From Bacteroidota bacterium (GTDB lineage: Bacteria > Bacteroidota > Bacteroidia > B-17B0 > Aurantibacillaceae): a stretch of 57,543 bases of DNA. Positions within the stretch are counted from its first letter, which is position 1; each line of letters opens with the position of its first letter. The notes under the pieces are model-generated. The model ran no database searches and was not told the DNA's origin. It worked only from the letters and a program-made list of their open reading frames with translations. This document shows, piece after piece, positions 37,469-43,230 of this stretch. The stretch is taken from contig CANLAV010000003.1 of NCBI GenBank assembly GCA_947487905.1, forward strand, positions 1 to 57,543. The letters are read 5' to 3'. The position numbers were made by a program, and so were the translations under genes.

Positions 37469-37501
37469 AAAAGGCCATTCATAACGAATGGCCTTTTTTT
37501 A
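37469..37501 (+). terminator. Intrinsic terminator after secDF
   Basis: Ten-base stem AAGGCCATTC / GAATGGCCTT with loop ATAAC, followed by seven T. It separates secDF from the copper/redox cluster. Confidence 0.92.
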
Positions 37502-37575: not shown

Positions 37576-38292
37576 ATGATTTCAACTATGAGCACTAAAC
37601 ACGTCTTACTACTATTTTTGTTTATAGTGTTTAAATGCGCTTACAGTCAACCTACAAAAAATATTAAGTTGACAATTCAACCTTACTTTGGAGATTTAGA
37701 ATTCAAATTAAATCAAAACTATCATCAATCATCCATAAATGATAGCATTCAAATTGAAACACTGAAATTTTATATTTCGGGAATTGAACTATTAGATTCA
37801 AACAACGTTATTTGGAAAGAAAAAAATAGCTATCATTTAATCGATTTTGAAAATGAAAATTCTCAATCTATCCAATTACATATTCCTAAAAAAAGCCGTA
37901 TTTCTAAATTAAAATTCAATATTGGCGTTGATAGCATCACCAGTAATTCAGGAGCACTGGGCGGAGATTTAGATCCGATTAACGGTATGTATTGGGCATG
38001 GCAAAGTGGTTACATTAATTTTAAAATGGAAGGAACTAGTCCAATTTGCGAGACTCGTAAACATAAATTTCAATTTCATCTTGGTGGATATAAGCAGCCA
38101 TTTTATGCGATGCAACATATTACTTTGCCAATTTATCATTTAGATGATAACACACTTCAAATCAACTTTAACTTAGCACCAATTTTTAATAGTATTTCTT
38201 TAAAAGAAACTCATTCAATTATGATTCCTTGTAAAGATGGTATGAACTTATCAAAGGTTGTCGCTCAATTATTTTCTATTCATGCACTTTAA
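37576..38292 (+). CDS. MbnP-family copper-binding-like protein
   Basis: A 238-residue exported protein whose signal peptide ends near CAYSQ. It matches the MbnP family ('metallo-mystery pair'): GDLDPINGMYWAWQSGYINF at about 130-149 contains the WxW motif (W140, W142), and HKFQFHLGGY and a C-terminal IPCKDG follow. C158 and C219 could form a disulfide. In Methylosinus the MbnH di-haem enzyme oxidises a Trp of MbnP to kynurenine and thereby makes a copper site; a similar reaction here is inferred. Its end overlaps the next gene, an MbnH-like protein, by 11 bases. No methanobactin genes are present. Confidence 0.85.
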   Translation: MISTMSTKHVLLLFLFIVFKCAYSQPTKNIKLTIQPYFGDLEFKLNQNYHQSSINDSIQIETLKFYISGIELLDSNNVIWKEKNSYHLIDFENENSQSIQLHIPKKSRISKLKFNIGVDSITSNSGALGGDLDPINGMYWAWQSGYINFKMEGTSPICETRKHKFQFHLGGYKQPFYAMQHITLPIYHLDDNTLQINFNLAPIFNSISLKETHSIMIPCKDGMNLSKVVAQLFSIHAL

Positions 38293-39334
38293 AAAAATAC
38301 ATATCATTTTTTATGTGCTGTTGATAGGCATCATTTCATTTGCCTTTATTTCAAAAGACACAACTCCTATTATTTTTACAATTCCTCAAAATTGGCCAAA
38401 ACCACATTATGATTTTAGTAAAAATACATTAACAGAAGAAGGATTTCAATTAGGAAGGAATTTATTTTATGATCCCATTCTATCCAAAGATAATACCATT
38501 TCATGCGCTAGCTGCCATTTGCAAGCAACAGGTTTTACTCATACTGATCATGATTTGAGTCATGGTATTGAAGGTAAAATAGGTCAACGAAACTCATTAG
38601 CCTTAATGAATTTAGCTTGGCAAAAAAACTTTATGTGGGATGGTGGAATAACTCATTTGGAAGTACAACCACTTGCCCCCATTACTAATCATCTAGAAAT
38701 GGATGAAAGTTTAGATCATGTTGTAAAAAAATTAAATGCTTCTGTGTATTATAAAACATTATTCAAAAACGCGTTTCATGATTCAGTCGTTACAGGACAA
38801 AAAACATTATTAGCCTTATCACAATTTCTTGTACAATTAAATTCATTCAATTCTAAATATGATAAAGTGATTCGTAAAGAAAAAGGAGTAACATTTACAG
38901 AACAAGAAAAAAGAGGTTTTACACTTTTTAAAAAAAACTGTGCTAATTGCCACAAAGAACCTTTATTTACAAGCGAAACATTTGAAAACATTGGATTGAA
39001 AGTTGACACAACGTTAACTGATCTTGGTAGAATGGCAATAACTAAAAATTCAAACGATTCGTTAAAATTTAAAATACCTACGCTACGCAATATTCAATTT
39101 ACATTCCCCTATATGCACGATGGGCGATTTAAAAAATTATCGGAAGTCGTGAATCATTATTTAGGCGGTATTCAAAATAGTAAAACACTCTCTGAAAAAT
39201 TAAAAGGAAAACCAATTTTATTATCACATGAAGAAAAGATAGATTTGGTTGTTTTTCTTTTAACACTAACAGACACTGAATTTTTATTTAACAAACGATT
39301 TACGTATCCAATAACACAAAAAAATAATTACTAA
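38282..39334 (+). CDS. MbnH-like di-haem cytochrome c peroxidase family protein
   Basis: A 350-residue protein with one N-terminal anchor or signal (about 6-24) and two c-type haem motifs, CASCH at 75-79 and CANCH at 220-224. FMWDGG at 117-122 and PYMHDGRF at 276-283 (M278 a possible axial ligand) are typical of the bacterial CCP/MauG/MbnH superfamily. It is probably periplasmic. The ATG at 38282 lies inside the end of the MbnP gene, so the pair is translationally coupled; this supports an MbnH rather than a general peroxidase role. Haem maturation genes are not in the window. Confidence 0.87.
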   Translation: MHFKKIHIIFYVLLIGIISFAFISKDTTPIIFTIPQNWPKPHYDFSKNTLTEEGFQLGRNLFYDPILSKDNTISCASCHLQATGFTHTDHDLSHGIEGKIGQRNSLALMNLAWQKNFMWDGGITHLEVQPLAPITNHLEMDESLDHVVKKLNASVYYKTLFKNAFHDSVVTGQKTLLALSQFLVQLNSFNSKYDKVIRKEKGVTFTEQEKRGFTLFKKNCANCHKEPLFTSETFENIGLKVDTTLTDLGRMAITKNSNDSLKFKIPTLRNIQFTFPYMHDGRFKKLSEVVNHYLGGIQNSKTLSEKLKGKPILLSHEEKIDLVVFLLTLTDTEFLFNKRFTYPITQKNNY

Positions 39335-39376
39335 CCAAAGAAATAAATTTATACACGACTAAAAAATCATTCTCTT

Positions 39377-41122
39377 ATGAAAAAAATCAACTTGAAAACT
39401 CTAACAACATTATTTAGTGTTCTAGTTTTGTCCTTTGTTATAAAAGCTCAATCCTACAATACATTATGGATTCCAGATACATTAAGAGGCACAAACTTTA
39501 ATCTTGCCTTAAAAGACACCTTTGCACAAATTGTAACAACTGGTAATCAAACGATTACAGGTGGAATAAATGGAAAAATATGGGGGCCAACTTTATTTTT
39601 CAATAAAGGAGATTCAGTACATTTCAATGTACATAATTATTTAAATGATTCTACAACCATTCATTGGCATGGCATGCATTTACCAGCTGTAATGGATGGC
39701 GGGCCTCATCAGATAATTCCTCCTGGTACCATATGGAAACCTTATTGGAAAGTAAATAATAACGCTGCCACATACTGGTACCATCCACATTTGCATGAAA
39801 TGTCTGTCGATCAAATTACTAAAGGATTAGGTGGATTAATCATCGTTAGAGATAATACCGAATCGGCATTAGCTCTTCCCAGAAAATACGGTGTTGATGA
39901 TATACCATTAGCAATAACTGATAGAAAATTTACAAACTTAAATCAATTTTCTATAGCACCTTATGGTGATAGTGTATTAGTAAACGCTACTTTAAGAGCA
40001 CAATACAATGTGCCTGCCCAAGTTGTACGATTTCGAATTTTAAATGCAGCCATTGAACGCTCATATAACATAGGATTTAGTGACAATAGAAATTTTTCTA
40101 TTATTACCTCTGATGGTGGTTTATTAAACGCTCCCGTTTCCGTTAACCGATACACATTACATGCTGGTGAACGTATTGAAATACTCGTTAGTTTTATTGG
40201 ACAATTAGGTCAATCGTTTGATATGAAAGCATACAATACCGCACTATCAAATAGCATTGCAGGAGGTGAAACGTTTACAACAGGTCCTTTTGGTAGTTTT
40301 CTAAATCATAAAGATTTTACCTTACTTCATGTTAATGTAGTCGCTCAAACAACCACTCCAATTTTGACTATACCATCATCATTAACTACAAACACCTTAT
40401 TAAGTGCTTCAAGTGCCGTAATAACAAGATCATTAACCATAAGTGATAGTGCTGGAGTAACCACACCAGTGATACTTGGTCCTAATGCATTTTTATTAAA
40501 TCATAAATTATTTGATTTCAATTATATGAATTATACAGTGCCACTAAACAATACTGAAATATGGCAGATAACAAGTTCATCAGTATTTGGTCATCCATTT
40601 CATATTCATGATGTCGAATTTAATATCCTATCTGTTAACGGTGTTGCCCCCGCTGCTGCACAAGCTGGATGGAAAGATGTTGTATTCGTTCCAGGTAGAA
40701 CAGGGCCTACAAATTCGGTTGTTAAATTTATTGCCAAGTTTGATGATTTTGCTGATGCAACTCATCCTTTTATGTTTCATTGCCACATCGCCCTGCATGA
40801 AGATGAAGGTATGATGGGGCAGTTTGTTGTTACAAATACTAATACAGCAATCGGAATGAATGAAAAAAACAAAGATGAAAAGGATTTTTTATTATATCCT
40901 AATCCTGCAAATGATAGATTATACATTTCATTTATTGATCCATCTATGGTTGCTTATTATATTAGAATAACCAATTCTGTCGGTAAAACAATTTACATGC
41001 TTCCTCGTCCCGAATTATCAAACGGACTTGATATTAGTAATTTATCACCAGGAATATATTTTATTCAATTAACAGATGACAAAACAAAATTAACAACAAT
41101 AAAAAAATTTATAAAAGAATAA
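39377..41122 (+). CDS. Multicopper oxidase with type A T9SS sorting domain
   Basis: A 581-residue exported multicopper oxidase. The signal peptide ends near KAQ. All four copper-ligand clusters are visible: HWHGMH at 96-101, HPHLH at 136-140, HPFHIHD near 405 and HCHIALHEDEGMM near 468, which carries the T1 Cys, His and Met. A three-domain laccase/CueO-like fold follows from this. The last 75 residues (LLYPNPANDRLYISF ... KKFIKE) are a type A T9SS signal, so it should act at the cell surface or be released. The substrate may be Cu(I), another metal or phenolics. It follows the MbnH-like gene by 42 bases. Confidence 0.93.
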   Translation: MKKINLKTLTTLFSVLVLSFVIKAQSYNTLWIPDTLRGTNFNLALKDTFAQIVTTGNQTITGGINGKIWGPTLFFNKGDSVHFNVHNYLNDSTTIHWHGMHLPAVMDGGPHQIIPPGTIWKPYWKVNNNAATYWYHPHLHEMSVDQITKGLGGLIIVRDNTESALALPRKYGVDDIPLAITDRKFTNLNQFSIAPYGDSVLVNATLRAQYNVPAQVVRFRILNAAIERSYNIGFSDNRNFSIITSDGGLLNAPVSVNRYTLHAGERIEILVSFIGQLGQSFDMKAYNTALSNSIAGGETFTTGPFGSFLNHKDFTLLHVNVVAQTTTPILTIPSSLTTNTLLSASSAVITRSLTISDSAGVTTPVILGPNAFLLNHKLFDFNYMNYTVPLNNTEIWQITSSSVFGHPFHIHDVEFNILSVNGVAPAAAQAGWKDVVFVPGRTGPTNSVVKFIAKFDDFADATHPFMFHCHIALHEDEGMMGQFVVTNTNTAIGMNEKNKDEKDFLLYPNPANDRLYISFIDPSMVAYYIRITNSVGKTIYMLPRPELSNGLDISNLSPGIYFIQLTDDKTKLTTIKKFIKE

Positions 41123-41125
41123 TTA

Positions 41126-41746
41126 ATGAAACTTTTAAAAACATTTTCAATTTTATCATTAAGTATTTTACTTATTTCAAATTATTTTTTAATTAATAGC
41201 TTTACTATTAAAAAATTTAGGGAAGAGATTAAAGATTTTAATTTAAAAAATACTGATGGGAAGTACATTTCATTAAAAGATTATAGAGATGCAAAAGGAT
41301 TTATCATCGTGTTTACTTGCAACCATTGTCCTTTTGCGAAATTATATCCGCAAAGATTTAACGAATTAAATACAAAATACAAACCTTTAGGAATTCCATT
41401 AATAGCGATTAGTTCTACTGATACAATCATGTACGAAGAAGATACATACTCGAGGATGATAATGAAAGCATTAAATGAAAAATTTAATTTTCCGTATTTA
41501 TTTGATGAAGAACAATTAGTTGCCAAAAATTTTAATGCTCAAAAAACACCACATGCATTTGTTATATGGAAGGAAAATGAAAAATGGATACTAAAATACA
41601 GTGGCGCTATTGACGACAATGGAGCTGAACCGAAAAAAGTTCAAAATCATTTTGTACGTAATGCAATTGAAGATTTACTAAATAATAGAGAAATTAAAAT
41701 ACCTGAAACGAAATCAATTGGCTGTCAAATTTATTTCAGAAAATAA
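41126..41746 (+). CDS. Thioredoxin-fold redoxin (AhpC/TSA-like), membrane-anchored or exported
   Basis: A 206-residue protein with an N-terminal hydrophobic segment (about 5-25) without a clear cleavage site. The redox motif is C65-x-x-C68 (FTCNHCPFAKLYPQRF), and PYLFDEEQLVAKNFNAQKTPHAFVI carries the cis-proline region. This is the pattern of the AhpC/TSA/PRX-like family found near metal and quinone genes. It starts 3 bases after the multicopper oxidase stop, so coupled expression is likely. It could keep cysteines or copper reduced; that is inference. Confidence 0.86.
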   Translation: MKLLKTFSILSLSILLISNYFLINSFTIKKFREEIKDFNLKNTDGKYISLKDYRDAKGFIIVFTCNHCPFAKLYPQRFNELNTKYKPLGIPLIAISSTDTIMYEEDTYSRMIMKALNEKFNFPYLFDEEQLVAKNFNAQKTPHAFVIWKENEKWILKYSGAIDDNGAEPKKVQNHFVRNAIEDLLNNREIKIPETKSIGCQIYFRK

Positions 41747-41802
41747 TTTAAATAACTTTTATAAAAAATAATTGCAATCTAATAAAAACCATAAAAAAAA
41801 AT

Positions 41803-43176
41803 ATGAAAACAAAAATCACATCACTACTAGGAGCAAGTATCATTGCTTCAACTTCATTGGCTCAAGTGAGTCCAGTCATTTCGTCGTGGCTCAGAAATAC
41901 AACAGGGATTACTGGCCGTCATTACGTGAGCGGAAATTCAACACCCATTAATGATAGTTACTTAGCAAACGTGCAAAGTGTAAAATATTCTACAAACTTT
42001 GTTTACGTCAGCTGTACTGGTATTCCATCTTATGTTATTGGGCCCTATTTAGATGGCAATCCAAATCAAGGTGGTAACAACTCCAACATTTATAAAATTC
42101 CTTTAGTACCGGTTGCAAATACAGGTTCGTTATCGCCAACAACAGGAGGAACGATAGGTGTATTTATAAATGGCGTATCATTATTTGATTACAGAGATGG
42201 TGTATCATGGAAAAGTTCAACCAGTTCATTATGTGGTGGCCCTATAATGCCTCCTTGCACTGGAGATGGTGTTTGGAATAGAGATGCTGTAGTTGCTGAG
42301 CGTGCCGGATTTGATTGCGCAAAAGGACATCCAGCAATGACTAATTATCACCATCATCAAAATCCAAGTGCTTTTAATTTAGACTTAACTGTTATTTCAA
42401 GTATTTGTAATTTATATGCGTCAGATGCTTTATACGTTATTAATTCATCAGTTCATTCACCAATAATTGGATATGCCTATGATGGTTTTCCTATTTATGG
42501 TGCTTATGGTTATAAAAATGCTGATGGCTCAGGTGGTATTGTTCGCATGAAATCAAGCTTTAGCTTAAGGAGTATCACAACAAGAAACACATTGTATACA
42601 AGCACCGCAACAGTTACTCCTGGTCCTGCAGTGAGTACAACCTATCCTTTAGGTTATTTTAAAGAAGATTATCAATATGTTCCTACAACAACCTTAACGC
42701 CAGATTATTTGGATATACACAATGGAAGATTTTGTGTAACACCTGAATATCCGTTAGGAACTTATTGTTATTTCGCAACGGTAGATGCTAATCATAATTC
42801 TGCTTATCCTTATGTTGTTGGGCCAACTTTTTATGGTGTAAAAAATGTAAGCAAAGTAACTTCGATTACAGAAACTACAACGACATATACAGGAAGTGCA
42901 ACCACTAGTTTACAAACTATAAATTTAGACGCAGCGATAAACATTTATCCTAATCCAAGTGCCGATTTAATTATGATTCAATCAAAAGAATTATTAAGTC
43001 ATGATTTAAAAGTTGAGTTAAGTAATCTAACTGGGCAAATTGTTGCAAAGAAAGATTTTTACCAAGGCAGTACTATTTGTTATTTTGAAACAACGGGACT
43101 TTATAATGGTACTTATTTTTTAACTATCATTGACAATGGCATTAAAAAATCATTTAAAGTAATCATCAATAACTAA
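41803..43176 (+). CDS. YHYH-domain protein with type A T9SS sorting domain
   Basis: A 457-residue exported protein with a signal peptide ending SLAQ. The central region matches the YHYH family: CAKGHPAMTNYHHHQNPSAF with Y182 and H183-H185, then GYAYDGFPIYGAYGY from about 223. The family motif YHYH reads YHHH here. Several cysteine pairs (GPIMPPC, SSICNL) suggest disulfides. The last 75 residues (INIYPNPSADLIMIQ ... FKVIINN) are a type A T9SS signal. The histidine cluster could bind metal. The family has no proven function; the gene ends the cluster before a terminator. Confidence 0.85.
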   Translation: MKTKITSLLGASIIASTSLAQVSPVISSWLRNTTGITGRHYVSGNSTPINDSYLANVQSVKYSTNFVYVSCTGIPSYVIGPYLDGNPNQGGNNSNIYKIPLVPVANTGSLSPTTGGTIGVFINGVSLFDYRDGVSWKSSTSSLCGGPIMPPCTGDGVWNRDAVVAERAGFDCAKGHPAMTNYHHHQNPSAFNLDLTVISSICNLYASDALYVINSSVHSPIIGYAYDGFPIYGAYGYKNADGSGGIVRMKSSFSLRSITTRNTLYTSTATVTPGPAVSTTYPLGYFKEDYQYVPTTTLTPDYLDIHNGRFCVTPEYPLGTYCYFATVDANHNSAYPYVVGPTFYGVKNVSKVTSITETTTTYTGSATTSLQTINLDAAINIYPNPSADLIMIQSKELLSHDLKVELSNLTGQIVAKKDFYQGSTICYFETTGLYNGTYFLTIIDNGIKKSFKVIINN

Positions 43177-43192
43177 GGTAAAAAAACAAATT

Positions 43193-43230
43193 AAAAAAGC
43201 AGCATTGATTTATTCATGCTGCTTTTTTTT
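43193..43230. terminator. Bidirectional terminator ending the copper/redox cluster
   Basis: Stem AAAAAAGCAGCAT / ATGCTGCTTTTTT with a ten-base loop. The minus-strand yggS stop follows one base later, so it can serve both convergent genes. Confidence 0.9.

Follow-up and report, generated by a model that had tools for sequence, protein, structure and literature searches.

Known MbnP/MbnH systems and the cluster in the window

MbnH, a di-haem enzyme of Methylosinus, reportedly oxidises a tryptophan of its partner MbnP to kynurenine, forming a copper site. Such pairs, in which a WxW-containing MbnP is encoded beside a di-haem MauG-like enzyme, are known from methanotrophs and other bacteria (TIGR04052/TIGR04039, GenProp0940; 6e1c) and are spread beyond the producers of methanobactin (PMC3621798). 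Here we describe a cluster of five plus-strand genes at positions 37576–43176 of a 57,543-nucleotide stretch (the window) of contig CANLAV010000003.1 (assembly GCA_947487905.1) from an uncultured Bacteroidota bacterium. The genes code, in order, for an MbnP-like protein, an MbnH-like enzyme, a multicopper oxidase (MCO), a redoxin and a YHYH protein. While the adjacent pair is shared with the known systems, the proteins in the window score under the NCBIfam cut-offs, methanobactin genes are absent, YHYH is a third constant partner, and a predicted surface MCO and a redoxin are accessory. A copper protein with an oxidised tryptophan, a di-haem peroxidase and surface association are also the theme of MopE/SACCP and CorA/CorB in Methylococcus and Methylomicrobium; in CorA/MopE kynurenine is the copper-site residue and the di-haem peroxidase is co-transcribed (PMC3912023). 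The present locus may share this theme. The MopE/CorA systems lack YHYH, MCO and the type IX secretion system (T9SS), and MopE/CorA are reportedly not markedly similar to MbnP.

The MbnP/MbnH pair being already known, the additions made here are a three-gene core, an MCO-redoxin extension and an upstream head of extracytoplasmic function (ECF) sigma factor and Metal_resist genes. None of the three was found in the open-licence literature, although a prior mention elsewhere is possible; searches of open-licence papers for YHYH together with multicopper oxidase, or for the Pfam accessions, likewise returned nothing relevant.

Linkage across Bacteroidota genomes

The conserved unit is MbnP-MbnH-YHYH, with a module-specific MCO and a CNHCP-type redoxin as a recurrent accessory pair. 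Three samples were used. Among 60 relatives, MbnP occurred in 53 and YHYH in 31; full-length YHYH genes, taken at E of about 5e-45 or better, numbered 33. MbnP was within 5 kb of 28 of these and three were unlinked; the remaining two lay on broken contigs that end near MbnH. The second sample comprised 80 loci from named genomes, selected solely by the presence of YHYH, 44 of which had at least 4.5 kb of sequence on both sides; MbnP and MbnH were both present within 5.5 kb in 37 of these. In 247 genomes drawn phylum-wide, MbnP was detected in 67 and full-length YHYH in 19, eight of the latter having MbnP within 3 kb. In a 3–4 Mb genome, any one gene pair would lie this close by chance with a probability of about 0.002; the samples share a few contigs (loci L181, L238 and L241 match relatives G006, G028 and G019), and related genomes are non-independent. 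Linkage of the families in other genomes, the check proposed in the preliminary description of this cluster, was clearly positive (28/33 genes and 37/44 loci).

All neighbours of 87 loci with both YHYH and MbnP were then clustered with no preset families. Nearly all on the same strand, the recurrent families were MbnP (86 loci), MbnH (86), ECF sigma (34), Metal_resist (33), MCO (12) and redoxin (10); at least 11 loci also encoded an anti-sigma-like protein, and every other same-strand family was found in seven loci or fewer. The 12 MCOs compare with a chance expectation of roughly 0.3 for the DNA surveyed at these loci, calculated from 33 such matches across some 205 Mb from the relatives. The gene order varied: MbnP-MbnH-MCO-redoxin-YHYH in the window and L243, MbnP-MbnH-MCO-YHYH-redoxin in L193, L194, L204 and L209, MbnP-MbnH-YHYH-MCO-redoxin in L125, and MCO-redoxin-YHYH-MbnP-MbnH in L092. 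An association that persists despite such reordering supports a functional link. The preliminary description had treated all five genes as one module; their families are indeed linked far beyond chance, but the five-gene set was rejected as the basic unit in favour of the near-constant MbnP-MbnH-YHYH core with an accessory pair; MCO and redoxin are present in 12 and 10 of the 87 loci.

The MCO-redoxin pair is sometimes accompanied by a T9SS-tagged sulfatase. Sulfatase-family genes, T9SS-tagged where checked, stand beside YHYH in L160 (3579–5168), L198, L191, L185, L226, L307, L309 and L310, and in the nearest relative (G002) a sulfatase gene separates redoxin from YHYH, which in the window are only 56 bases apart.

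In about a third of the loci there is an upstream set consisting of an ECF sigma factor, a small anti-sigma-like protein and a Metal_resist (CnrX/Spy-type) protein; the sigma factor and the Metal_resist-type protein are directly upstream of the core in 28 of the 80 named loci. The cultured relative Flavobacterium psychrotolerans (L217) has the order sigma-antisigma-Metal_resist-MbnP-MbnH-YHYH. Among 27 Metal_resist-type proteins, 19 match PF13801 and seven LTXXQ, with H67, F121 and C128 invariant. CnrYXH-type regulation likewise combines an ECF sigma factor, a small anti-sigma-like protein and a periplasmic Metal_resist protein in one operon; the set in the relatives heads an MbnP-MbnH-YHYH operon and not an efflux pump. 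In Bacteroidetes a class I anti-sigma factor is encoded nearby for only 6% of ECFs (PMC7406223). The set is absent from the window cluster, and a search of the window genome with the Metal_resist alignment gave no match at the sensitivity used.

The five genes and their products

Open reading frame and Pfam searches confirmed five genes in one direction, flanked, as had been described, by two strong hairpin terminators, both of which fold. The left boundary is an intrinsic terminator after secDF (37469–37497, plus strand; hairpin z -6.66) from a terminator scan; on the right a hairpin followed by a T run (43193–43228, plus strand; -17 kcal/mol, z -4.38) was not in the scan output and was identified by folding. 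MbnP and MbnH overlap by 11 bases, given the ATG start of the latter, and the remaining gaps are 42, 3 and 56 bases. As the preliminary description held, neither an mbnA precursor nor MbnB/MbnC is encoded inside the cluster: the five genes belong to other families and no gap exceeds 56 bases. The T9SS sorting tail (Por_Secre_tail in Pfam) was found on MCO and YHYH and on none of the other three proteins. The absence of this export tag from MbnP and MbnH and its presence on MCO and YHYH fit the earlier placing of the pair in the periplasm and of the oxidase and YHYH at the surface. A sensing role, as judged from gene content, fits the upstream ECF sigma/anti-sigma/Metal_resist set of the relatives better than the MbnP/MbnH pair.

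The 238 amino acid MbnP-like protein (37576–38292; PF20243, 1.2e-48) has an N-terminal signal-like segment, no lipobox and no T9SS tail. It scores 166 bits against PF20243 (cut-off 27) and 48.5 bits against the NCBIfam equivalog TIGR04052 (cut-off 140), under which four further Bacteroidota MbnPs also fall. Its WxW motif, a candidate tryptophan oxidation site, was located at W140-A-W142 (37993–38001), the positions given previously. WxW is present in 83 of 83 YHYH-linked MbnPs vs 62 of 77 unlinked ones, and YHYH linkage tracks the MbnP tree, with 8 changes vs 53.5 in shuffles (a FastTree tree with many weak forks). In one relative (G031) both parts are retained, the MbnP-MbnH pair, of module type, on one contig and YHYH on another. 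No solved structure was matched to MbnP by sequence or profile search.

For the MbnH-like di-haem enzyme (350 amino acids, 38282–39334; CCP_MauG, 1e-52), ATG 38282 is the most probable start and gives the 11-base overlap previously noted; TTG 38258, which would lengthen the protein, is less probable. Of the MauG-type models, TIGR04039 matches the enzyme best (206 bits; MauG model 180) although under the equivalog cut-off of 362.85, as do the other Bacteroidota MbnH proteins tested. The best PDB match of the MbnH family profile is Methylosinus MbnH (6e1c, 3.6e-57, whole length), narrowly ahead of bacterial peroxidases and far ahead of MauG. The window enzyme has CxxCH at 75 and 220, an inter-haem W119 and Y293, the latter two aligning with their 6e1c counterparts; equivalents of all four are invariant in 21 module enzymes. 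In MbnH/MauG-like di-haem enzymes a tyrosine replaces the methionine at the ligand position of bacterial peroxidases.

The third gene (39377–41122), already assigned to a T9SS-tagged multicopper oxidase, encodes a CueO-like MCO of 581 amino acids with three Cu-oxidase domains and a Por_Secre_tail (7.2e-13). All copper ligand motifs are intact (HWHG96, HPHLH136, HPFHIHD406 and HCH468...MM). Like CueO-type enzymes it has three cupredoxin domains, and it is nearest CueO among NCBIfam models and solved structures; unlike them it scores 354 bits, under the CueO equivalog cut-off of 525, carries a T9SS tag, belongs to a YHYH-linked clade of its own, and lacks a Met-rich insert of CueO type, with no methionine in residues 295–372. 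Among the 60 relatives, MCOs at least 60% identical to it were found only in G000, G002, G004, G039 and G014. The redoxin adjoins the MCO in all five, four of which have the pair in the module. In a tree, 16 module MCOs and the G014 copy form a single clade (support 99/100). The ordinary CueO-like MCOs that these genomes also encode fall outside it, as does an MCO on a long branch whose YHYH neighbour is unlinked (L304). A T9SS-type sulfatase adjoins the MCO-redoxin pair of G014, in which the MCO frame is broken (L277, 6705–9128); the flanking genes are of the same kinds as around the G004 cluster, and the YHYH-MbnP-MbnH part is on a separate contig. Possibly this locus is decaying following a split of the cluster. 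Near-identical MCOs occur in metagenome-assembled genomes labelled Kapaibacterium and Ignavibacteria (L208, L226), which are either mislabelled bins or the result of recent transfer. In L216 (977–4615) a 1212 amino acid MCO-containing protein, about twice the usual length, is encoded between a Metal_resist gene and YHYH.

Three bases after the MCO, the CxxC thioredoxin-fold protein of the preliminary description proved to be a CNHCP-type AhpC/TSA redoxin (206 amino acids, 41126–41746; AhpC-TSA/Redoxin in Pfam) with an N-terminal hydrophobic segment and cysteines at 65, 68 and 200.

The last gene (41803–43176) specifies a YHYH protein of 457 amino acids with a signal peptide-like N-terminus (PF14240, 5.2e-53) and, in agreement with its earlier description as T9SS-tagged, a Por_Secre_tail at residues 381–455 (8.5e-11). 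An alignment of 89 sequences revealed a conserved H176...Y182-H183-x-H185 segment (42328–42357); the invariant residues, in window numbering, are H176, Y182, H183, H185, D227, D289, D304, N307, G308, Y321 and Y323. A comparison of jumbo phages predicted a zinc site of three histidines and one aspartate in phage-tail YHYH proteins and proposed a metal-dependent hydrolase (PMC7824862); from the alignment, H176/H183/H185/D227 would fit this site. Phage-tail and giant-virus YHYH proteins share the domain and the His/Asp set, whereas the window protein is cellular, predicted to be T9SS-exported, and encoded in a redox/metal operon. An AlphaFold model built with the 89 sequences is of high confidence and mostly beta (predicted local distance difference test score, pLDDT, 90.9; predicted template modelling score 0.90), an earlier one with 26 sequences having been poor (pLDDT 59.6). 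Searching the PDB for similar folds with the newer model turned up nothing usable (best E 3.3; VIA Z 2.2), which does not by itself prove a new fold for the modelled protein, and a viral library returned cyanophage (baseplate-type) and giant-virus YHYH proteins.

Possible roles of the cluster

The gene content points to envelope metal handling. Our tentative preference, held at a little under even confidence, is that the cluster is a conserved Bacteroidota envelope module for a metal, probably copper, in which MbnP would deliver copper to T9SS-exported proteins. MbnH would oxidise the WxW tryptophan of periplasmic MbnP to kynurenine and so create a copper site. MbnP would carry periplasmic copper to the T9SS cargo: to the MCO, which needs four copper atoms, and perhaps to a metal site in YHYH. 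The redoxin would keep the copper-ligand cysteine of the MCO or other thiols reduced prior to export, and the exported products would act on the cell surface as an oxidase and a metal-dependent enzyme. In relatives the ECF sigma/anti-sigma/Metal_resist set would induce the module upon metal; the window copy would have lost this set or never had it.

Several points weigh against this proposal. Because most loci lack the MCO, supplying this enzyme cannot be what the core generally does. YHYH is found without MbnP/MbnH in L171, L183 and L219 of the named set and in L161 of the relatives, as well as in phages and giant viruses, and is to this extent independent of the pair. Both MbnP and MbnH fall under the NCBIfam equivalog cut-offs, and the recurrent neighbours of the 87 loci include neither a copper ATPase nor a Sco gene.

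It is possible, though doubtful, that YHYH is a metalloprotein of new fold and that MbnP/MbnH deliver its metal or oxidise its residues. The core would then be a general Bacteroidota route of metalloprotein maturation from periplasm to surface, under ECF/Metal_resist control, with a dedicated surface copper oxidase added in some lineages.

Copper acquisition we regard as unlikely. The cluster would be expressed under copper limitation, kynurenine-containing MbnP capturing scarce copper and the surface proteins oxidising or releasing bound copper, as for the methanotroph copper proteins CorA/MopE: these contain kynurenine, are associated with the surface, are repressed by copper and share a transcript with a di-haem peroxidase (PMC3912023). 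A TonB-dependent receptor gene follows the MCO in L208, and L226 has a 780 amino acid gene of the same size and position, yet this receptor family is found in just 5 of the 87 loci, the upstream Metal_resist/ECF genes resemble sensors of metal excess such as CnrX, and MopE/CorA are reported to lack marked similarity to MbnP (PMC3621798). Those upstream genes, present in 28 of the 80 named loci, would rather suit tolerance of a metal such as copper, as would the nearness of the MCO to CueO: an ECF/CnrX-like switch would respond to metal stress, the surface oxidase detoxify Cu(I), MbnP buffer copper and the redoxin repair thiols. However, the sensor genes are missing from the window and from some two thirds of loci, the MCO has no CueO-type Met-rich insert, and no efflux pump is recurrently linked among the 87 loci, and we do not expect this explanation to hold either.

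Rather improbable is surface polymer chemistry, with YHYH as a metal-dependent hydrolase working alongside MCO, T9SS sulfatase and metallophosphatase, and MbnP/MbnH supplying cofactor or electrons. The YHYH invariants agree with the predicted zinc hydrolase triad of histidines plus aspartate (PMC7824862), and T9SS sulfatases and metallophosphatases adjoin several loci; nevertheless these enzymes accompany only 6 and 3 of the 80 named loci, respectively, and the constant partners are redox/metal proteins. That unrelated secreted proteins adjoin in the window by accident is hardly credible: YHYH, MCO and MbnP are each also found alone, but dozens of genomes have the grouping, in varied orders, and chance clustering was rejected as contradicted by the linkage statistics.

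The YHYH domain, enigmatic and known from phage tails and diatoms, gains a cellular operon context here. Together with the MCO and the candidate metal switch, YHYH makes the role of the common Bacteroidota MbnP/MbnH pairs outside methanotrophs testable in cultured relatives.

Related genes are also found in other settings. Larger clusters with a TlpA-like thioredoxin, T9SS metallophosphatases and a second YHYH-type protein occur in L198 (11076–15589), L185 and L203, with MbnP/MbnH absent from the sequenced stretch. The window genome carries a second MbnP (L103, 4828–5616, contig C28), which has a lipobox-like N-terminus and no adjoining MbnH. In relatives, MbnPs of this type adjoin two proteins whose tested examples gave no Pfam match, a Cys-rich one of 126–130 amino acids and one of about 328 amino acids starting near CDICGSYMGITPY.

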